This document shows positions 1,489-36,180 of a stretch of DNA of 36,673 nt, piece by piece. The position numbers and the translations under genes are program-made. How positions within the stretch are numbered: the first letter of the stretch is position 1; the number at the start of each line of letters is the position of its first letter. Origin of the DNA: a virus; IMG/VR virus record IMGVR_UViG_3300017960_000033, positions 1 to 36,673 of that record. One strand, given 5' to 3'. A model generated the notes under the pieces. That model did no database searches, was not told where the DNA came from, and saw nothing but the letters and a program-made list of their open reading frames with translations.

Positions 1489-1538
1489 GACCGCGGCCGA
1501 CCCCTGAGACCCGGAGATCCCCGGGTCCCGTACGCGAA

Positions 1539-1564
1539 GACGGCCGGCGTCGCCGCCGGCCGTC
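1539..1564 (-). terminator. Strong GC hairpin terminator
   Basis: A perfect 10-bp stem (GACGGCCGGC with its complement) closes a 6-base loop GTCGCC (plus strand), 22 bases past the stop of the 1586 gene. The same loop is used by the hairpin at 36165-36192. There is no T-tract. Confidence 0.55.
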
Positions 1565-1585
1565 CCCGTCCTGATCCCGCTCCGA

Positions 1586-2068
1586 CTAGCTCTCGAAGCC
1601 GGTCGTCCCCTCGACCTCTTCCCGCCGCGCGAACTTGAGCGAGTCGAAGGCGCTCTTGATCTTCGACGTATCGAGCGTGAGATCCCCGTCGAGGTTCGCG
1701 TCGATCGCTTCCTTCACTCCCTCGCCGCCGTAGAGCGCGACGAGCGCGAGCGTTTCGAGCCATTCGAGCGCCGGAAGGTCGAGCTCGACGGTGACGCGGA
1801 CCTTCGCGCAGGACTTCGAGATCGTCTCCGCGACGACCGCGGTCGTCTTCCCGTCGTTCCATTCGACGAGCGCCGAGGACCCCTTCCGATCGACGACCGT
1901 TCCGCGCGCTTCCCAGCGATCGCCGGCGAAGATATCGAGGACGTCTCCGACCTCGACCGGCGACCCGTTCCGATCCCAAACGTACCGCTTCCGGGTGATC
2001 TCTTCGACGAACTCAGCCGTCCGCTCTTCCGTCGTCTTCGCCTCGATCTCGCGTCGTCTCGCCTTCAT
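1586..2068 (-). CDS. Hypothetical protein with SH3-like beta domain
   Basis: The 160-residue protein has a charged helical N-terminus (1-28), then a compact beta-rich module (about 30-92) beginning WDRNGSPVEVGD and continuing GTVVDRKGSSALVEWNDG, which resembles KOW/SH3-type barrels. A C-terminal helical part (95-160) follows. The DRNG-x-GD-GTV-W-DDG pattern recurs in the proteins at 4511-5167 (twice) and 36215-36673. The ATG at 2068 sits 8 bases after AAAGGGGAG. It is the second gene of the operon from the promoter at 2448. No function is assigned; the family may bind nucleic acid or protein. Confidence 0.75.
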   Translation of the reverse strand: MKARRREIEAKTTEERTAEFVEEITRKRYVWDRNGSPVEVGDVLDIFAGDRWEARGTVVDRKGSSALVEWNDGKTTAVVAETISKSCAKVRVTVELDLPALEWLETLALVALYGGEGVKEAIDANLDGDLTLDTSKIKSAFDSLKFARREEVEGTTGFES

Positions 2069-2113
2069 CGTCTGCTCCCCTTTCTGGCCGGCGGCGCCGA
2101 AGCGCCGCCGGCC
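2066..2113 (-). promoter_or_regulatory. Hairpin plus Shine-Dalgarno leader cassette
   Basis: On the minus strand a perfect 12-bp stem with a UUCG tetraloop (2086-2113) ends next to AGAAAGGGGAGCAGACGATG. The same leader precedes the genes starting at 4455, 5167 and 5787. Lying between two genes of one operon, the hairpin could act as a 5' mRNA stabiliser after processing, a partial terminator, or both. Confidence 0.65.
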
Positions 2114-2122
2114 GTGAACGTG

Positions 2123-2362
2123 TTAGCTCAGGAAGACCCGCTCGGTCGTGAGCGAGCCGTCGTCGTGACGATCGTCGCGCTCGACCCAGCGCGTGATCTC
2201 GACGCCGTCGGTCAGATCGACGACGATCCCGACGGTGAGCGAAGCGATCGGCGACTCGTCGCCGTAGAAAGTCGTCGTCGTCATACCGTCGACGCGACCG
2301 TGACCGAACTCAGAGCGGACCGTCCGCTCGCCTCTCAGGAACTCGGAAGTCGTGGCGCTCAT
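2123..2362 (-). CDS. Hypothetical small protein (79 aa)
   Basis: First gene after the promoter at 2448. The ATG at 2362 is preceded by GGAAAGGGGAG and, just upstream, by a small hairpin of two GGCC arms around a GAGA (GNRA) loop at 2380-2391. The protein is polar and acidic with beta-like patches (TTTTFYGDESPIASLTVGIV). There are no cysteines, membrane segments or known motifs. The reading frame continues upstream of 2362, but that part overlaps the leader and has atypical composition, so 2362 is the natural start. Confidence 0.7.
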   Translation of the reverse strand: MSATTSEFLRGERTVRSEFGHGRVDGMTTTTFYGDESPIASLTVGIVVDLTDGVEITRWVERDDRHDDGSLTTERVFLS

Positions 2363-2447
2363 TCTCGGCTCCCCTTTCCGGCCTCTCGGCCTGACCTCGG
2401 TTTCCCCGCCGCCCGTCCCGTCCCCTCGCTCACTCGACCACAATCAA

Positions 2448-2476
2448 AGTATAGCCTTTCAACCGATCTCCGTCAA
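2448..2476 (-). promoter_or_regulatory. Sigma70-type promoter
   Basis: Minus strand: -35 TTGACG (2471-2476), 17-bp spacer, -10 TATACT (2448-2453). Transcription should start near 2441 and give an 80-base leader before the 2362 gene. The -10 region and the first transcribed bases (TATACTTTG, TGTGG) match the promoter at 5848. Confidence 0.9.
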
Positions 2477-2613
2477 GAGAAATCGACCGAAATCGACCAG
2501 AAAAAGGACCGGCCCTAGAGCCCGATATCGAGCCTTAGAGCCGGAATCCCCTCAGAGCTCCATACGAGCCCTCAGAGCGACGATCTCCCGCCGGCCTTAC
2601 GAGGACCCTCGGA
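2451..2613 (-). repeat. Interoperonic repeat, copy C
   Basis: This is the second full copy of the 163-bp unit at 1-163, with the same internal spacing. It holds the promoter, the hairpin with T-tract and the 33-bp core (2555-2587). Similarity to the 36058 copy extends right to about 2673, with the motif GGACCCCTCAG lying 89 bases from the core start in both. Confidence 0.85.
2501..2542 (-). terminator. Hairpin plus T-tract terminator
   Basis: Equivalent to the structure at 49-92: on the minus strand GGCTCTA pairs with TAGGGCC around GCTCGATATCGGGC, followed by five Ts. It lies 24 bases upstream of the -35 box, so it probably insulates the promoter from the operon to the right. Confidence 0.6.
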
Positions 2614-2664
2614 CGGACCTCGACGGCCACGAGCGCCGGCGACGGACCCCTCAGAGACGCAGAT

Positions 2665-2694
2665 CGGCCGCCGTCCCCGAAGGTCCGGCGGCCG
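2665..2694 (-). terminator. GC hairpin with UUCG loop after the 2727 gene
   Basis: Arms CGGCCGCC (2665-2672) and GGCGGCCG (2687-2694) pair. The inside can extend to a CC-UUCG-GG tip on the minus strand. It starts 33 bases past the stop of the last gene of the 5848 operon. Confidence 0.55.
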
Positions 2695-2726
2695 TCCGCG
2701 AGCTCGCGCCCGGAGCGAGCCCCGTC

Positions 2727-2975
2727 TCAGATCCTCGCGAGGATCTCTTCCTCTTCGACCTCGTCGATCTTCGCGTCCTTCCCGAGCGGCGCTCCACAGA
2801 TCGCGCAAGGGATCCGGCCGACGACCGGGACGTCGTAGTAGTCGAGCGTCTCGCGATCGCCGTCCGTCTTCCAGATCCACGACTTCGCCCACGTCCCCGA
2901 GTCGACCAGTACGGCCGCGGCGATACACTCCGGATGAGCGACCTCGCCGGTCTCTTCGTTCCGATAGAAAGCCAT
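2727..2975 (-). CDS. Zinc-ribbon-like small protein (82 aa)
   Basis: Starts at an ATG behind AGAGAGGGGAGCAG. The sequence shows HPEC (H14, C17) and later PCAIC (C57, C60), a spacing that could bind one zinc ion, plus a Trp/Tyr-rich centre and an acidic C-terminus (DEVEEEEILARI). Small zinc-ribbon proteins are common in phage accessory operons and often bind nucleic acid or host proteins; the target here is unknown. It is the last gene of the operon from the promoter at 5848. Confidence 0.75.
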   Translation of the reverse strand: MAFYRNEETGEVAHPECIAAAVLVDSGTWAKSWIWKTDGDRETLDYYDVPVVGRIPCAICGAPLGKDAKIDEVEEEEILARI

Positions 2976-3009
2976 TCTCTGCTCCCCTCTCTGGCGCCCT
3001 CGGCGCCGG

Positions 3010-3414
3010 CTAGTCGAAGAGCGTCGGCGTCCGGGCCGCCGCCGCCTCTTCGCGTTCCCGTTCCTCGCGTCTCGCGATCTCGCGCGCGAGCCGAGCGTCG
3101 TTCGCGACGAGCGTCTCGTAGTCCTCGCCGGTCGTCCACGACCGGACGAGTAGACAAGCGCGCGAGTAGATCTCATCGTTCAAGAGGCGCCACTCGAAGA
3201 GCCGCGTTCGCCGCGACGTCCCCGGGTGTCCCTCGTCCCGGACGAGCGGCCGACGGTCGATCGTCAGACCGCGCGCGCCGAGAGCGTCGTCCATTCGATT
3301 CCGGCACGAGTAGCCGTCGTATCCGAAATGCTCGACGTTCGACCAGAGCGGATAGCGCTCGACGAGGACCTTCAAGAGCCGGCCGGCCTGAGTATTCTCG
3401 CGGAGCGTTCTCAT
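3010..3414 (-). CDS. Putative winged-helix/HTH protein (134 aa)
   Basis: The N-terminal half (about residues 5-55: NTQAGRLLKVLVERYP through YSCRNRMDDALGARG) has the helix-turn-helix pattern of small DNA-binding domains. The C-terminus is a long charged helix rich in Arg and Glu (REIARREEREREEAAAA) ending TPTLFD. Its ATG overlaps the stop of the 3411 gene as ATGA, so the two are translationally coupled; the partner is ribbon-helix-helix-like. A DNA-binding regulator pair is plausible, but no family is identified. Confidence 0.7.
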   Translation of the reverse strand: MRTLRENTQAGRLLKVLVERYPLWSNVEHFGYDGYSCRNRMDDALGARGLTIDRRPLVRDEGHPGTSRRTRLFEWRLLNDEIYSRACLLVRSWTTGEDYETLVANDARLAREIARREEREREEAAAARTPTLFD

Positions 3415-3647
3415 CGTGAGCTCCCCTTTCTGGCGCCGCGGCGCCGGCTGTAGCCGGGAGCCCACTCGATCGTCTCGCCGGCGGCCAGATCAGCCTTGAG
3501 CCGGATAAGAGCCGTCCGGATCAGACGGTCCCCCGAGACGCCGCGCGCCCGAGCCTCGACCCCGATCCACGTCCGGAGCGAGGTCGGGAGCTTGAAGAGC
3601 CGGACGGCGTCGTTCGTTCGTCTGCGATTCCTCTTCGTCTTGATCAT
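3411..3647 (-). CDS. Ribbon-helix-helix-like protein (78 aa)
   Basis: After a basic N-terminus, FKLPTSLRTWIGVEARARGV followed by SGDRLIRTALIRLKADL has the strand-helix-helix pattern of Arc/CopG-type DNA-binding proteins. The last residues (about 64-78) are encoded by what elsewhere is a non-coding hairpin-leader cassette: the frame reads through a GGCGCC palindrome and the AAAGGGGAG site and stops in ATGA at the start of the next gene. This suggests loss of an earlier stop. The start at 3647 has AAAGGGGAG 8 bases upstream. Confidence 0.75.
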   Translation of the reverse strand: MIKTKRNRRRTNDAVRLFKLPTSLRTWIGVEARARGVSGDRLIRTALIRLKADLAAGETIEWAPGYSRRRGARKGSSR

Positions 3648-3664
3648 CGTTATCTCCCCTTTCT

Positions 3665-3691
3665 GGCGCCCGGGGTCGAGCCCCGGGCGCC
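3665..3691 (-). repeat. 27-bp perfect hairpin, copy 1 of 3
   Basis: An 11-bp stem GGCGCCCGGGG closes a 5-base loop, directly before the leader of the 3647 gene. Identical 27-mers occur at 4473-4499 and 5185-5211, each between two genes of the same operon and each followed by AGAAAGGGGAG on the minus strand. Confidence 0.85.
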
Positions 3692-3702
3692 GGCTAGATC
3701 TG

Positions 3703-4455
3703 CTATCGGACGTTGTCGGCGCCGAAGTCCTCGCCGCGATGCGGCGCGGCCGGCGCGCTCGGGTCGTAGCATCCGAGCGAGTCGGCGAGCTCGTCGTTCT
3801 CGGCCGGCGACGCTAGGACCGCGGCCTTGTAAGCGGCGATCACGGCGGCCTCGAAGCCGTCCGTCGTGAGCTCGCGGACCTGATCGGGAGTCCTCGCCTC
3901 GAAGAGCCTCGCCTCGACGTGACGGACCGGAATCCCCGGACCCTCGTTCCCGCCGGCGACGGCGCCGCGAAGGACCTCGGCGATCGCGTCCTGATAGTCG
4001 CCGTCGCCCTTCCACGGCGCGAGCTCGATCGGGATCCCCTCGGCCCACTCGTAGATCTCGATCAGCGTCGAGATCCGCGACTCCGGATCGAGCGAGTCCA
4101 CGTCGCCGCGATACTCGAAGACCCGTTGAGAGACCTCGCCGTACTCGAATCCCATTCCCGCCGGCGGGTCGACCCGGAACTCCGAGCTCCCGCCGTAGGG
4201 GACGTAGTCCTCTTCGATCGTGCATCCCTCGCGCCGGAGAGCGGCGCGGACGACCGCGATCGTGATCCGTCCCGGCTTCCCGGCGCGCTTCCTGAGCTCG
4301 GCCCCGAGACGCCGGATCTCGTAACGGTGAGCGACCACGACGGCCGACTCCCTCTTCCCCTGACGGAGAGCCTCGATCACTCCCCGCTCGTGGTCCCGGA
4401 CCTTCGCCCGGATCTGCTCGGTCGTCCTCGGCTTGATCTCGATTCCCTTCCTCAT
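3703..4455 (-). CDS. Hypothetical protein (250 aa)
   Basis: A clear gene with the standard leader (AAAGGGGAGCAGACG before ATG). Residues 10-60 are helical and charged (TTEQIRAKVRDHERGVIEAL). A mixed middle holds an acidic, aromatic stretch (EYGEVSQRVFEYRGDVDSLD, later IYEWAEGIPIELAPWKGDGD), and the C-terminal third is alanine-rich and helical. No catalytic motif, cysteine cluster or membrane segment is recognised. It lies between two hairpin-leader cassettes in the 5848 operon. Its function is unknown. Confidence 0.75.
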   Translation of the reverse strand: MRKGIEIKPRTTEQIRAKVRDHERGVIEALRQGKRESAVVVAHRYEIRRLGAELRKRAGKPGRITIAVVRAALRREGCTIEEDYVPYGGSSEFRVDPPAGMGFEYGEVSQRVFEYRGDVDSLDPESRISTLIEIYEWAEGIPIELAPWKGDGDYQDAIAEVLRGAVAGGNEGPGIPVRHVEARLFEARTPDQVRELTTDGFEAAVIAAYKAAVLASPAENDELADSLGCYDPSAPAAPHRGEDFGADNVR

Positions 4456-4472
4456 CGTCTGCTCCCCTTTCT

Positions 4473-4499
4473 GGCGCCCGGGGTCGAGCCCCGGGCGCC
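4473..4499 (-). repeat. 27-bp perfect hairpin, copy 2 of 3
   Basis: Identical to the hairpins at 3665 and 5185. It lies between the stop of the 4511 gene and the leader of the gene starting at 4455. Confidence 0.85.
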
Positions 4500-4510
4500 G
4501 GCTGAGTGTG

Positions 4511-5167
4511 CTAGTCCTCGTCCGTCTCGTCGACCGCTCCGAGAGCCTCGACGATCGCGCGGCCGATCGGACCCTTCCCGGTGAATCCGGCGCCCTTATT
4601 GAAGCGGATCCTCGGCCTCGCGGCGCCGACGATCGCGACGTCGAGGTAGCCGATCGACGCGTCGGCCTCGGTGACGTCGTCGTCGTCCCAATCGACCCGG
4701 ATCCAGTCGACCGTCGAGATCGTCACGGTCCCGAGCTCCCCTTCCTGCTCGACGCGGTCGCCGCCGTAGAGCTTCGTCCCGTTCCGATCGCAGACCCTCG
4801 ACTTCGCGGCCGGCATCTGAGACGGCGTCCCAGCGACGACGCCGGCGGGAGTCTCTTCCCCGTCGACCTCGACGTAGATCCGCGCGAAGTCGGAGATCTT
4901 CGCGGCGTCGAGCGTCCGATAGTAGCTCGTGTAGCCGTCGCGACCGTAGACCCGGACGCCGGCGTCGGAGATCTTCCGGACGCGGACCCGCTCGCGGCCG
5001 TTGTATCCGCGGATCGGGTCGGCGAGCGGCCCTTCGAGGATGAGCTCGTCGCCGACGTGGACCCGGACGCCCTCGGCGTCGTAGATCGCGTCGGTCGTCG
5101 TCTCGTCGAACGTGAACTCTAGTCCGCTCCGGCTCCCGCTCTCTCTGATCTCGTTCGTCGTCCTCAT
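4511..5167 (-). CDS. Two-module SH3-like hypothetical protein (218 aa)
   Basis: The protein carries two related beta-rich modules. Module 1 is about 29-103 (YDAEGVRVHVGDELI, then RVRVRKISDAGVRVYGRDG). Module 2 is about 126-180 (CDRNGTKLYGGDRV, then GTVTISTVDWIRVDWDDDD). Both fit the pattern D-x-G-x-V-x-V-GD...G-x-V...VxWxDG seen in the 1586-2068 and right-edge proteins, suggesting KOW/SH3-type barrels. A basic glycine-rich stretch and an acidic tail (DETDED) follow. The start at 5167 has the shared leader. It is the second gene of the 5848 operon. Binding of nucleic acid or a host protein is possible but unproven. Confidence 0.75.
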   Translation of the reverse strand: MRTTNEIRESGSRSGLEFTFDETTTDAIYDAEGVRVHVGDELILEGPLADPIRGYNGRERVRVRKISDAGVRVYGRDGYTSYYRTLDAAKISDFARIYVEVDGEETPAGVVAGTPSQMPAAKSRVCDRNGTKLYGGDRVEQEGELGTVTISTVDWIRVDWDDDDVTEADASIGYLDVAIVGAARPRIRFNKGAGFTGKGPIGRAIVEALGAVDETDED

Positions 5168-5184
5168 CGTCTGCTCCCCTTTCT

Positions 5185-5211
5185 GGCGCCCGGGGTCGAG
5201 CCCCGGGCGCC
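5185..5211 (-). repeat. 27-bp perfect hairpin, copy 3 of 3
   Basis: Identical to the hairpins at 3665 and 4473. It lies between the stop of the 5224 gene and the leader of the gene starting at 5167. Confidence 0.85.
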
Positions 5212-5223
5212 GGTCGAATCCTC

Positions 5224-5787
5224 TTAGAGCTCGAACCTCTCGCCGGTGATCACGTCTACGACCGTCTCGCCCGGACCGAACGCCGCGAGCATTTCGTAGC
5301 GCTCTTCGGCCTTCGCCTCTTCGCTCATCGTCGCGCGCGCCGCCTTGTAGCTCGCGATCGCTTCGTCGATCTCGCGCTCCCGCGCGAGCCTCTGCTCGCG
5401 CGTGACCTCGCGGCCGGCCGATTCGAGGACGTCGAACGGGACGACGTTCCCGCTCGCGTTCCAGCGCGTGACGCCGTCGACCGTCGTCGACTCGTGACGG
5501 AGCTTCGACTCGTAACGGATGCTCTCGACGTCGTCGGCGAACTCGCGGTAACTCGCGTAGCTCGCGGACCGAAGGACGAAGCGGATCCAGCCGTTCTCGT
5601 CGTCGATCTCGAACCAGATCGGGCGCTCGACCTGACCGCGGATCGTCTGATAGACCGGCGTCCGCTCGCGCTCGTGAGTCCGCTCGACCTTCGCGATCGC
5701 GACCTCGATATCGTTCCAGTCGTAACCGTGATCCTCGGCGATCTTCCGGGCCTCGTCCTTCCTGATCTCTCTTCCGAACTCTCTCAT
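5224..5787 (-). CDS. Hypothetical protein (187 aa), first gene of the 5848 operon
   Basis: A charged soluble protein: a helical N-terminus (REFGREIRKDEARKIAEDHG), a beta-rich centre with WFEIDDENGWIRFVLRS, and a long Arg/Glu/Ala helix (about 125-165). No cysteines or membrane segments are seen. The ATG at 5787 has the standard AAAGGGGAGCAGACG leader, with a small GGCC hairpin closed by a GCGA tetraloop (5805-5816) just upstream. It begins about 55 bases after the probable transcription start. No family is recognised; as the promoter-proximal gene it is expected to be well expressed. Confidence 0.75.
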   Translation of the reverse strand: MREFGREIRKDEARKIAEDHGYDWNDIEVAIAKVERTHERERTPVYQTIRGQVERPIWFEIDDENGWIRFVLRSASYASYREFADDVESIRYESKLRHESTTVDGVTRWNASGNVVPFDVLESAGREVTREQRLAREREIDEAIASYKAARATMSEEAKAEERYEMLAAFGPGETVVDVITGERFEL

Positions 5788-5847
5788 CGTCTGCTCCCCT
5801 TTGTGGCCTCGCGGCCGGCCGTCCTCGTTCACTCACTCCACAGACAA

Positions 5848-5876
5848 AGTATAGCCTTTTGGCTCGGGAGAGTCAA
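5848..5876 (-). promoter_or_regulatory. Sigma70-type promoter of the main accessory operon
   Basis: Minus strand: -35 TTGACT (5871-5876), 17-bp spacer, -10 TATACT (5848-5853), followed by TTTGTCTGTGG. It is near-identical in plan to the promoter at 2448. It should transcribe the genes from 5787 down to 2727. Confidence 0.9.
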
Positions 5877-5879
5877 GAG

Positions 5880-5920
5880 AAAAAGAGAGGCTTCTAAGGC
5901 GTGATATCGAGCGTTAGAGC
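5880..5920 (-). terminator. Terminator-like element upstream of the 5848 promoter
   Basis: A degenerate version of the hairpin unit at 49-92 and 2501-2542: GCTCTAACGC-TCGATATCACGC with partial pairing, then CTCTCTTTTTC on the minus strand. It follows the stop of the 5926 gene by a few bases. Stem pairing is weaker than in the other copies and the 33-bp core is absent here. Confidence 0.45.
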
Positions 5921-5925
5921 GGGAT

Positions 5926-6291
5926 CTACGGAGAGCGGGTCGGGAGCGGCGGGTCGACGAACTCGTAAGCGGTACAAGCGAGCGCCGGCTCGAAGACGAG
6001 CTCGACGAGGACGAGCGCCGGCGAGAGCTCGGTCACGGTCGCGCCGGCGTCGGAGAAGATCGTATCGGGAGAGACGAACGCGGTCCAGACGACCGTCGTC
6101 TCCGCGGTCGCGAGCGTGAAGCGCCAGAATCCCTCCGAGAGAATCGCGACGACGGAAGAGATCTCGACCGGGGAGAGAGCGCTCGGCCCGGAGTCCGAAC
6201 TCGGAGCGGCCGACGAGTGAGCGTCGCCGGCTATGCTGGGGAGCATACCGAGCAGGACCCCGAGCGCGAGCGCGCGCCCTCTCCCCCTCAT
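5926..6291 (-). CDS. Secreted/periplasmic hypothetical protein (122 aa)
   Basis: Residues 1-25 (MRGRGRALALGVLLGMLPSI then AGDAHS) form a signal peptide with a likely cleavage site near AGDA. The mature part is Ser/Ala/Val-rich and beta-like, with one Cys near the end, and no recognised domain. It begins 2 bases after the stop of the 6294 gene and is the last gene of the operon that includes the peptidase and zinc-ribbon genes; a terminator-like element follows. Confidence 0.65.
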   Translation of the reverse strand: MRGRGRALALGVLLGMLPSIAGDAHSSAAPSSDSGPSALSPVEISSVVAILSEGFWRFTLATAETTVVWTAFVSPDTIFSDAGATVTELSPALVLVELVFEPALACTAYEFVDPPLPTRSP

Positions 6292-6293
6292 GG

Positions 6294-6629
6294 TCAGAGA
6301 TCCTCGATCGCTTCGCCGGCCGCGGACGCGAGCGCGTCGGGATCGCAGTCGCAGATCCACGCGACGCGGACCTCGCCGGCTTCGGTCTGAGCGCGCCGCT
6401 TTCTGAGATCGCCGCCGCAGTCGGGACAGACGTAACGCTCGACGGCGATCGTCTCGCCGGCCGCGGCGCCGAGCGCGCCGTCGCCGACGACCGTATTCGG
6501 ACCGAACGCTTCGAGGACCGCGGAGAGCGCGGTACAGAATCCGAGCGTCTGGTCCTTCCCTCTCATCGACGGCTTGACCCTCGCCTCGATCCCGTCGATC
6601 ACTTCCCGGACGGTCTGGACGTCTGACAT
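6294..6629 (-). CDS. Zinc-ribbon hypothetical protein (111 aa)
   Basis: The N-terminal half is helical (SDVQTVREVIDGIEARVKPS). The C-terminal half has CPDCGG (C68, C71) and WICDCD (C93, C95), likely one zinc site. ATG at 6629 is preceded by GGAGGG. Its first 31 bases overlap the end of the upstream gene (6599-6937) in another frame. No family name is assigned; small zinc proteins near phage terminase genes are common but of unclear role. Confidence 0.75.
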   Translation of the reverse strand: MSDVQTVREVIDGIEARVKPSMRGKDQTLGFCTALSAVLEAFGPNTVVGDGALGAAAGETIAVERYVCPDCGGDLRKRRAQTEAGEVRVAWICDCDPDALASAAGEAIEDL

Positions 6630-6937
6630 AGATCCCTCCGTAGATTCGCCGCGATCGTCGCGGCGTCCGTTTCGCGAGAGCGCCATACTAGCAGACGGCG
6701 CGACCCGCATCGTCTACATTTCGACGTGACCGTCCGATAGTCCTCGGGCTCGAACGACCAAGCCGTCCAGCGGTGAATCCCGAGCCGGCAGAGCATCGGC
6801 CGCGGTCGGCCGACGGTCCCCCGGACCTCTTCGAGCTCCCCGAGGATCTGCTCGACCTTCCCGATCCGCGCGACGAAGCGCGCGATCGAGACGCCGATCC
6901 GGACCCTGAGCGAGCCCTCTCCCTCGTCGAGTTTCAT
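6599..6937 (-). CDS. Small zinc-binding phage protein (112 aa)
   Basis: The N-terminal part is an amphipathic helix with coiled-coil character (ARFVARIGKVEQILGELEEV, about 19-38). The C-terminal part carries C50-x4-H55 in CRLGIHRWTAW and C74-x2-C77 in KCRRCGSR, a pattern common in short phage zinc proteins. ATG at 6937 overlaps the stop of the peptidase gene as ATGA, with GGAGG upstream. The 31-base overlap with the next gene is real on both sides: both frames keep the local codon style and have good ribosome sites. Confidence 0.75.
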   Translation of the reverse strand: MKLDEGEGSLRVRIGVSIARFVARIGKVEQILGELEEVRGTVGRPRPMLCRLGIHRWTAWSFEPEDYRTVTSKCRRCGSRRLLVWRSRETDAATIAANLRRDLCQTSRPSGK

Positions 6938-7958: not shown

Positions 7959-7991
7959 GAGCTCCATATTCGCCCTCTGAGCGACGATCTC
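7959..7991 (-). repeat. 33-bp intergenic core repeat, copy D
   Basis: Core repeat between the terminase stop and the peptidase gene, about 100 bases before the peptidase ATG. It differs from the others by TATT-C in the centre and CTCTGAG for CTCAGAG. Confidence 0.75.
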
Positions 7992-8022
7992 CCCCGGGTC
8001 CGACCTCTGAGTCGGGGAGATC
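7986..8022 (-). terminator. Inverted repeat abutting the terminase stop codon
   Basis: GATCTCCCC (7986-7994) pairs with GGGGAGATC (8014-8022). An alternative inner stem is CCGAC/GTCGG around CTCTGA. It ends on the first base of the terminase stop triplet. There is no T-tract. It overlaps the core repeat D by six bases. Confidence 0.45.
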
Positions 8023-11063: not shown

Positions 11064-11096
11064 GAGCTCCATATGAGCCCTCAGAGCGACGATCTC
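11064..11096 (-). repeat. 33-bp intergenic core repeat, copy E
   Basis: The core lies only 20 bases before the 11044 start codon, so if it is a promoter the leader would be very short. Its right flank (CCCCGGCTCCGACCCCTGAG) is like that of copies B and D rather than A, C and F. Confidence 0.8.
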
Positions 11097-11400
11097 CCCC
11101 GGCTCCGACCCCTGAGTCCCCCGGATCGAGAGCGTTTCGTGGCGCCCGAGGACGGCCCTCAGACGCGCGATCCGGGCGCCGGCGGCCCCGGGATTCGGCA
11201 ACCCGAACGGCAACCCGGTTGCCGGCCCAGCGACCTCTCGAATACCGGGGTCGCCGGTAAACCCGTTAGCTTCCCGAGAAAGGACCCGCTCTAACCCCCG
11301 TAGACGGCCTCCCCGGGCCGATTTGAGCGAGGTCCCGAATCGGATCCCCTCCGTATACGGCGTCGAGAGCGGCTCTACGTCCCGATCTCGACGGCCGCGA
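11097..11400 (-). promoter_or_regulatory. Non-coding region with inverted repeats (possible packaging site or operator)
   Basis: No convincing gene is present; open frames here are Arg/Gly-rich with no ribosome site. It holds two direct copies of CGGCAACCCG (11196-11205 and 11208-11217), the second forming a near-perfect palindrome GGCAACC-C-GGTTGCC (11209-11223). There is also an inverted repeat TACCGG-N5-CCGGTA (11243-11259) and the palindrome CCGTATACGG (11351-11360). It lies upstream of the terminase unit, where cos or pac sites often occur; an operator for a repressor is the alternative. Confidence 0.45.
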
Positions 11401-33296: not shown

Positions 33297-33375
33297 CGGC
33301 GGCCCGACCGCGCGACCCGACCCTAGCCGGCGGCCGCTCTCCCCGCGGCCGCCGTTTCTCTAGGAAGACCCTCCG

Positions 33376-34473
33376 ATGATCGGTCAGAACGTATACGAGT
33401 TTGATAACGCGGCGAGCGGCTATATCTTCAAGGTCGGCTCGTACTACGGGGCCGCGACCGGCTGGGATAACTGTAACGTCGGCCAGTCCGTCACGGCGGG
33501 GATCACGTGCGGCGCGTTCTTTAGCTTCGATACCTCGAACCTTCCCGATCACGCTCAGATCGACAAAGTCGAGTTTCGGGTCCGCGGCTACCGTAACGCC
33601 CCAATCGGCAACCCGCAGTTTTACGATATCCGATTCAAGATCGGCGACATAATCGGCGGGAGCCTCGACGGGACCGCGGCAGAGTGGGCCGCCGGCGCTC
33701 ATATGATCACGCTCACGTCGCGGCCGGCTGATAAGACGACGCTCGATCTCAGCGACGACGGGAACGATCCGACTCAGTACGTCGACAAGTCCGGCGATAC
33801 GGATATCTCGATTATAGATCACGGCGTACAGGGGACCGGCGACTCGGCTTGGTGGGCCTTTTTCAACGCGTCGACGACTGAGCGCTGTAAGCTGTATGTA
33901 TGGTACTCCGTCCCGTCGGCCGAGCTCTCGGCTTCCGGGTCCCTCGAAGCCGCCGGCGAAGTGATCCGCGGCGGGACCGCGGAGCTCGCCGGCGAGGGAG
34001 AGCTCGACGCCGCGGCGATCGCGACCTACGACGGCGCCGGGACCCTCGACGGCCTCGGGGACCTCGGCGCCGCCGGCGGGATCCTTCACTCGACGGCCTC
34101 GGGAACGCTCGCCGGCGAGGGAGAGCTCGTCGCCGCGGGGATCGTCTTCCGACTCTGCGCCGCGATCCTCGCCGGCGAAGGATCTCTTACCGCTTCGCCG
34201 AACTGGATCGCGAGCGGCGACGCGACGCTCGACGGGATCGGCGATCTGACGGCGCTCGCGGCTCTGCTTCACTCGACCGCGTCCGCGACCCTTGAGGGAA
34301 TCGGAACGCTAACCGCGGCCGGCGGGATCTCCGTCCCCCCGCTCGCGTATCATCTGCTAACGATCGCGGTCTCCGCGGTCGACTCGGACTCGATCTCAGT
34401 CTCGGCCGTCGACTCGGCGACGATCGCCGTCGAGCTCGATACGCTTTCACTCGGACCCCGGAGTAACATATGA
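33376..34473 (+). CDS. Fibre-like virion protein with tandem repeats (365 aa)
   Basis: Residues 1-175 form a beta domain, probably a jelly roll (FFSFDTSNLPDHAQIDKVEF; WWAFFNASTTERCKLYVWY). From about 178 to 318, seven repeats of about 17-22 residues follow the pattern [LA]-x-G-x-G-x-L-x-A-A-G (SASGSLEAAGEV; LAGEGELDAAAI; LDGLGDLGAAGG; LAGEGELVAAGI; LAGEGSLTAS; LDGIGDLTALAA; LEGIGTLTAAGG). Such repeats suggest a beta-helical or fibrous shaft. The C-terminus has another short repeat, SAVDSDSISVSAVDSATIAV. It may be an adsorption protein. AGGAAG precedes the ATG. Confidence 0.7.
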   Translation: MIGQNVYEFDNAASGYIFKVGSYYGAATGWDNCNVGQSVTAGITCGAFFSFDTSNLPDHAQIDKVEFRVRGYRNAPIGNPQFYDIRFKIGDIIGGSLDGTAAEWAAGAHMITLTSRPADKTTLDLSDDGNDPTQYVDKSGDTDISIIDHGVQGTGDSAWWAFFNASTTERCKLYVWYSVPSAELSASGSLEAAGEVIRGGTAELAGEGELDAAAIATYDGAGTLDGLGDLGAAGGILHSTASGTLAGEGELVAAGIVFRLCAAILAGEGSLTASPNWIASGDATLDGIGDLTALAALLHSTASATLEGIGTLTAAGGISVPPLAYHLLTIAVSAVDSDSISVSAVDSATIAVELDTLSLGPRSNI

Positions 34474-36057: not shown

Positions 36058-36180
36058 GAGCTCCATAGAGCCCCTCAGAGCGACGATCTCCCGCCGGCCT
36101 TGTGAGGACCCTCGGAGCCCCCTCGCCGGCCGAGAGCGACCTCTCTGGACCCCTCAGAAACGCAGATCGGGCGCCGTCGC
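36058..36180 (-). repeat. Interoperonic repeat, copy F (no promoter)
   Basis: The 33-bp core (36058-36090) and the same right flank as copies A and C (GCCGGCCTTGTGAGGACCCT) are present, and spacing to GGACCCCTCAG is exactly 89 bases as in copy C. The promoter and T-tract half of the unit is absent; the candidate origin lies there instead. Confidence 0.8.

Follow-up and report, generated by a model that had tools for sequence, protein, structure and literature searches.

In the 36.7-kb virus record IMGVR_UViG_3300017960_000033 of IMG/VR (36,673 nucleotides [nt], analysed over its whole length and called the window below), each of eight minus-strand accessory genes, starting at 2068, 2362, 2975, 3414, 3647, 4455, 5167 and 5787, is preceded by a GC hairpin lying directly 5' of a AGAAAGGGGAG Shine-Dalgarno (SD) sequence. 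The stem base abuts the SD, and the distance from the 3' base of the hairpin to the ATG is exactly 17 nt in all eight genes, confirming the association of hairpin and SD that an initial annotation of this DNA had proposed. We suggest, with confidence that falls somewhat short of even, that these start-associated RNA hairpins may act as cistron punctuation, keeping neighbouring cistrons separate at translation initiation.

The SD leaders of the eight genes follow the pattern (A/G)(G/C)A(A/G)AGGGGAG, reading AGAAAGGGGAGC, ACGAAAGGAGCTGG and similar, and the strong stems in front of them differ in sequence, with energies of -25.5 to -29.4 kcal/mol. The hairpins before 3647, 4455 and 5167 are identical, as had been claimed; their reported size of 27 base pairs (bp) did not hold, however, since each spans 27 nt with an 11-bp stem and a CUCGA loop. 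A ninth hairpin, before the gene starting at 6629, falls outside the interval (2066-5811) to which the cassette had been assigned.

A search with the terminase led to close relatives (63-71% identity), including the loci L009 and L012, both of which contain orthologs of g3010, g3411, g4511 and g614; L148 and L149 emerged from a further search, with the g6934 family. L009 carries identical copies of one 26-nt hairpin before two different genes with differing SDs, as well as an additional hairpin before a third gene, while L012 has two strong hairpins and one within coding sequence. In L148, one hairpin separates the orthologs of g5224 and g4511 and a second precedes the g6294 ortholog, at whose start an 11-bp hairpin (3907-3931) is unlike in sequence to the 8-bp one of the window. 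L149 is a weaker case, with a single hairpin that lies within coding sequence, 13 nt from the start. Scans of viral contigs with the exact leader as a DNA pattern yielded no further relatives, and a generic SD pattern matched many loci that had no comparable leaders in the scan. Protein scans with A2 and with the single g3010 protein returned only L009 and/or L012; the scan with A5 also returned L148 and one contig without the accessory region.

Both leaders and stems are in excess of chance expectation. The SD-start pattern (the AGAAAGGGGAGC-type leader, found at the eight genes and a few others) gave 11 matches against 0.27 expected. Perfect stems of at least 11 bp with a short loop numbered seven in the whole window versus 0.48 in dinucleotide shuffles, and stems of at least 10 bp in the region 1501-5950 numbered five versus 0.16. 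Moreover, abutting hairpins were stronger at accessory starts than at the other listed gene starts (p=0.006; 32 starts in the comparison set, two of which, 11737 and 12243, are off register). At the first genes, starting at 2362 and 5787, the 4-bp stems do not exceed background in strength, and these hairpins are distinguished only by their exact position and a GNRA loop. The window, L009, L012 and L148 contain 1.4-2.3 such sites per 10 kb, compared with 21 sites in 1571 kb of other phage or genome loci (156 loci scanned). None of the same four sequences had an Rfam match at the gathering score.

The initial annotation had further proposed selection on RNA structure, to be checked by stem covariation, and this idea was borne out. 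Across three orthologous junctions, located via their proteins and restricted to cases with a hairpin on both sides of the comparison, 13 of 34 base pairs had changed in both partners and none in a single partner only: five of 11 between g5224 and g4511 (window and L148), three of 11 between g4511 and f7600 (L009 and L012) and five of 12 between f7600 and f8473 (L009 and L012). Pairs were counted from the stem base in an ungapped register; the MAFFT alignment had a loop-length gap inside the stem. The data would look alike whether whole stems were replaced or pairs compensated stepwise, and on either route it is the pairing that is kept. In addition, UNCG or GNRA loops make up six of 11 leader tetraloops, compared to 8.8% of tetraloops in these genomes (p=1.5e-4), with two of the six on 4-bp stems and the UCCG loops of L009 and L012 possibly sharing descent; when only stems of at least 5 bp are considered, four of eight tetraloops are of this type (p=0.003). 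Because pair changes were exclusively two-sided and loops were enriched for UNCG/GNRA, selection on the RNA structure of the leader hairpins appears supported.

The leader does not travel with its gene. The initial annotation had viewed gene and leader as movable modules, a suggestion contradicted by relatives that carry the same genes without hairpins: the g3010 orthologs (L009 6096, L012 7097), the g3411 orthologs (L009 8747, L012 9845) and the L012 ortholog of g4511, which there is the first gene after a promoter. Conversely, the three identical hairpins of the window precede unrelated proteins without cross-matches, which rules out duplicated genes as the source of the identical stems, and in L009 the identity stops at the hairpin, the SDs being different. 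By these comparisons, the leader tracks operon position rather than gene. The g3411 open reading frame (ORF; 3411-3647) extends beyond the stop position of its L009 and L012 orthologs, through the leader hairpin of 3414, and overlaps the next start by ATGA. We also noticed by eye a small HNH-endonuclease-like protein at differing locations in L009 (5740-6081) and L012 (11467-11805), which suggests gene movement within the accessory region.

Hairpins are tied to the downstream start much more tightly than to the upstream stop (standard deviation of the distance 1.2 nt versus 21.8 nt), with an overall hairpin-to-start distance of 13-19 nt, mostly 17 nt. At ten strong junctions, the stop is followed after 9-15 nt by a hairpin of 26-28 nt and, after another 16-19 nt, by the start, for a total of 51-59 nt from stop to start. 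For a stem to remain folded, the closest it can come is about 9-12 nt in front of a ribosome that is terminating, and about 15-17 nt behind the P site in one that is initiating. Given this spacing and these footprints, the hairpin looks fitted between two ribosomes.

Loss of the hairpin coincides with fusion of the neighbouring proteins at two junctions. In L009 and L012, g4511 and f7600 are encoded as two proteins with a hairpin at their junction; in L152 the hairpin is absent and the proteins are fused, residues 1-128 matching g4511 and residues 129-272 matching f7600. Likewise, g4511 and g3703 are separated by a hairpin in the window and fused in L148, where a 290-amino acid protein matches first g4511 and then g3703 and the hairpin is absent. 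Terminal parts of the partners are missing from the fusion proteins, which makes a junction-spanning deletion a more likely origin than clean module insertion. Overlapping genes in L009, L012 and L148 are mostly without hairpins.

Based on these results, cistron punctuation could operate as follows. A GC stem of 11-13 bp (4-8 bp at some genes) would fold in the polycistronic mRNA directly 5' of the SD, where it would sit between the footprints of the upstream terminating and the downstream initiating ribosome and could therefore remain folded while both cistrons are translated. So placed, it may prevent coupling or run-through between cistrons, shield the ribosome-free gap and define the 5' boundary of the ribosome-binding site, perhaps stacking on the SD/anti-SD helix. 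Coaxial stacking has been mentioned for hairpins that abut an SD duplex (PMC3936740). The 16S rRNA 3' end of one Eisenbacteria genome reads CACCTCCTTTCT, and its CCTTTCT tail is complementary to the AGAAAGG of the leader, such that pairing up to the hairpin base would be possible.

Several observations weigh against cistron punctuation. Equilibrium folding gave SD unpaired probabilities of 0.54 for native, 0.48 for permuted and 0.52 for deleted hairpins, and in random contexts, where most leaders were scored on the 3-nt SD core only, the values were 0.50 with and 0.49 without the hairpin (difference 0.01, p=0.23). A simple model of SD insulation is thus not supported, since the hairpin did not make the SD clearly more accessible in these simulations. 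The hairpins at 3414, 6629, L012 12023 and L149 7371 lie within upstream coding sequence, so that translating ribosomes must open them. In Escherichia coli, upstream hairpins reduce initiation unless a sufficient single-stranded platform is left, and the standby-site model built there (PMC3936740) would, by our reading, predict a mild decrease of initiation. The comparison also draws on a small number of relatives, and the host, which is uncultivated, is known only by inference. A bolder form of the proposal, in which the hairpins would form a class of phage RNA element not described before, locked in position but free in sequence, that serves as universal cistron punctuation, is homogenised in each genome by hairpin-only copying and, through its gain or loss, switches neighbours between separate and fused states, seems to us doubtful.

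Stabilisation of mRNA, which the initial annotation had suggested, ranks next after cistron punctuation and is a live rival, possible but less likely than not. Following endonuclease cleavage in the gaps, the hairpins might protect upstream 3' ends and/or downstream 5' ends, a role well suited to GC-rich stems of 11-13 bp with stable loops that, at the strong junctions, stand 9-15 nt past the stops; the E-hairpin of E. coli galE has a demonstrated 3' protective role (PMC9239205). However, the hairpins are locked in position to the downstream start and not to the upstream stop, the weak first-gene hairpins do not lie at the transcript 5' end, and inspection of the 9-15-nt gap by eye revealed no conserved cleavage motif. 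That the hairpins are the same within a genome but different between genomes, that identity in L009 ends at the hairpin, and that the same gene occurs with or without a hairpin among relatives would also fit selfish or recombination-prone palindromes, REP/BIME-like in behaviour, which spread between genes and are tolerated at junctions; we consider this unlikely, as neither the fixed 17-nt spacing to the ATG nor the kept pairing is expected of passive insertions.

The three identical copies in the window and the two in L009 could alternatively be bound, as DNA or RNA, by a sequence-specific regulator, in line with proposals made for inverted repeats of actinobacteriophages; the authors of the Cluster K study favour DNA-binding proteins for the ESAS repeats (PMC3203893). 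Yet stems differ between genomes and within one genome with pairing kept, and UNCG/GNRA loops matter in RNA only, which makes a regulator site a rather poor prospect. Transcription terminators or attenuators would equally place strong GC stems between genes, but this explanation is largely refuted and very improbable: in 16 of 16 leaders there are zero or one T within 12 nt after the stem, which rules out ordinary intrinsic terminators, and the same genomes do have terminator-like stems with T-tracts before promoters. Programmed ribosome bypassing of the T4 gene 60 type was set aside, since a good SD and a start codon follow each hairpin.

Table 1. Leader hairpins, SD leaders and neighbouring elements in the window (positions in nt).
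Feature	Position	Strand	Remark
Hairpin, 12 bp, C(UUCG)G loop, upstream of gene 1586-2068	2086..2113	-	
Weak hairpin, 4 bp, C(GAGA)G loop, first gene of operon B (2123-2362)	2380..2391	-	strength at background
Hairpin, 6 bp, upstream of gene 2727-2975	2993..3007	-	
Hairpin, 5 bp, upstream of gene 3010-3414, within 3' end of ORF 3411-3647	3432..3445	-	
Identical hairpin, copy 1, 11 bp, CUCGA loop, upstream of gene 3411-3647	3665..3691	-	
Identical hairpin, copy 2, upstream of gene 3703-4455	4473..4499	-	
Identical hairpin, copy 3, upstream of gene 4511-5167	5185..5211	-	
Weak hairpin, 4 bp, C(GCGA)G loop, first gene of operon A (5224-5787)	5805..5816	-	strength at background
Ninth hairpin, 8 bp, 17 nt upstream of gene 6294-6629, within upstream ORF	6647..6665	-	
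SD leader AGAAAGGGGAGCAGACG, 17 nt	2069..2085	-	
Other 17-nt leaders	2363-2379, 2976-2992, 3415-3431, 3648-3664, 4456-4472, 5168-5184, 5788-5804	-	
Sigma70-like promoter of operon A, TTGACT-17-TATACT	5848..5876	-	from sequence
Sigma70-like promoter of operon B, TTGACG-17-TATACT	2448..2476	-	from sequence
Terminator-like stem and T-tract, end of operon A, just before promoter B	2506..2523	-	contrasts with T-less leader hairpins
34-nt repeat GGAGATCGTCGCTCTGAGGGCTCNTATGGAGCTC, copies	105-138, 1456-1489, 2555-2588, 7959-7992, 11064-11097, 36058-36091	-	

The window encodes the terminase, portal, major head protein/protease, tape measure, tail and endolysin proteins of a tailed phage, whose terminase is only about 45-47% identical to those of the nearest cultured phages. 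Its accessory genes (1586-5787) are located on the minus strand downstream of the terminase and form two operons, both with a TTGAC-17-TATACT promoter. The eight accessory proteins had no above-cut-off Pfam matches and no PHROGs matches, and no function was assigned to them. L152 (1-3028), a close relative of L012, is a 3-kb contig in the metagenome-assembled genome CSMAG_500 of Candidatus Eisenbacteria, and other distant g6934 matches are mostly in Eisenbacteria and Gemmatimonadota genomes; the host of the phage group is therefore likely, though not proved, to be an Eisenbacteria/Gemmatimonadota-type bacterium.

Positions 1-185 and 2451-2635 of the window form a direct repeat (88% identical) that includes the promoter -10 region and the terminator-like stem, and the left contig end falls within the promoter of the 1-185 copy. 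The dispersed 34-nt repeat GGAGATCGTCGCTCTGAGGGCTCNTATGGAGCTC is present in six copies on one strand, where none is expected by chance; similar copies were seen by eye in long intergenic gaps of L009, L012, L148 and L149. A GC hairpin with a T-rich tail precedes the gene at 33376 (window 33328-33354, L146 13366, L165 4707; minus strand). Its stem and loop are identical in L146 (L009 contig) and L165, in contrast to the fast-changing accessory hairpins.

Function of such start-associated elements should be testable with simple reporter operons, and the hairpin might lend itself to operon construction as a compact natural spacer part. In the open-licence literature, the closest described systems are the SAS/ESAS of Cluster K, the motif of Cluster EF, and the inverted repeats of Clusters EG and O. 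From sequence, we would class the leader hairpin as a variant of the actinobacteriophage start-associated inverted repeats and not as a member of SAS/ESAS. As in Cluster K (PMC3203893) and Microbacterium Cluster EF (PMC7302621), a conserved motif at the SD position stands before several genes and is carried by different gene families, with an inverted repeat upstream of it in Cluster K and a weakly conserved motif in EF. By eye, however, neither the 13-bp GGGATAGGAGCCC consensus of Cluster K nor the EF GGGAAAGGACCCC matched the leaders. The Cluster K ESAS is a 17-bp imperfect inverted repeat of conserved sequence, whose departures do not support RNA pairing (PMC3203893), whereas here stems are perfect and change in sequence between genomes with pairing kept. 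Furthermore, the ESAS follows the gene family in Cluster K, unlike the present hairpins, which the g3010, g3411 and L012 g4511 orthologs lack.

The 18-bp inverted repeats of Cluster EG have one sequence, GATCAACCNNGGTTGATC, across genomes (PMC7302621); our stems vary between genomes, are longer, consist entirely or almost entirely of GC pairs and frequently carry loops of RNA type. The 17-bp palindromes of Cluster O (PMC4351075) are likewise repeated and partly intergenic, but they are invariant in sequence, about one-third lie within genes, and they are not tied to starts. The galE E-hairpin (PMC9239205) resembles the leader hairpins in being stable and in following a stop codon within an operon, yet it represents a single site with demonstrated 3' protection, while those described here are repeated and locked to the downstream start. 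For the actinobacteriophage start-associated repeats, RNA pairing was judged unsupported; the phage group analysed here presents the opposite case, in which pairing is kept, geometry is fixed to stop and start, and fusion or separation of neighbouring proteins tracks the loss or presence of the hairpin.

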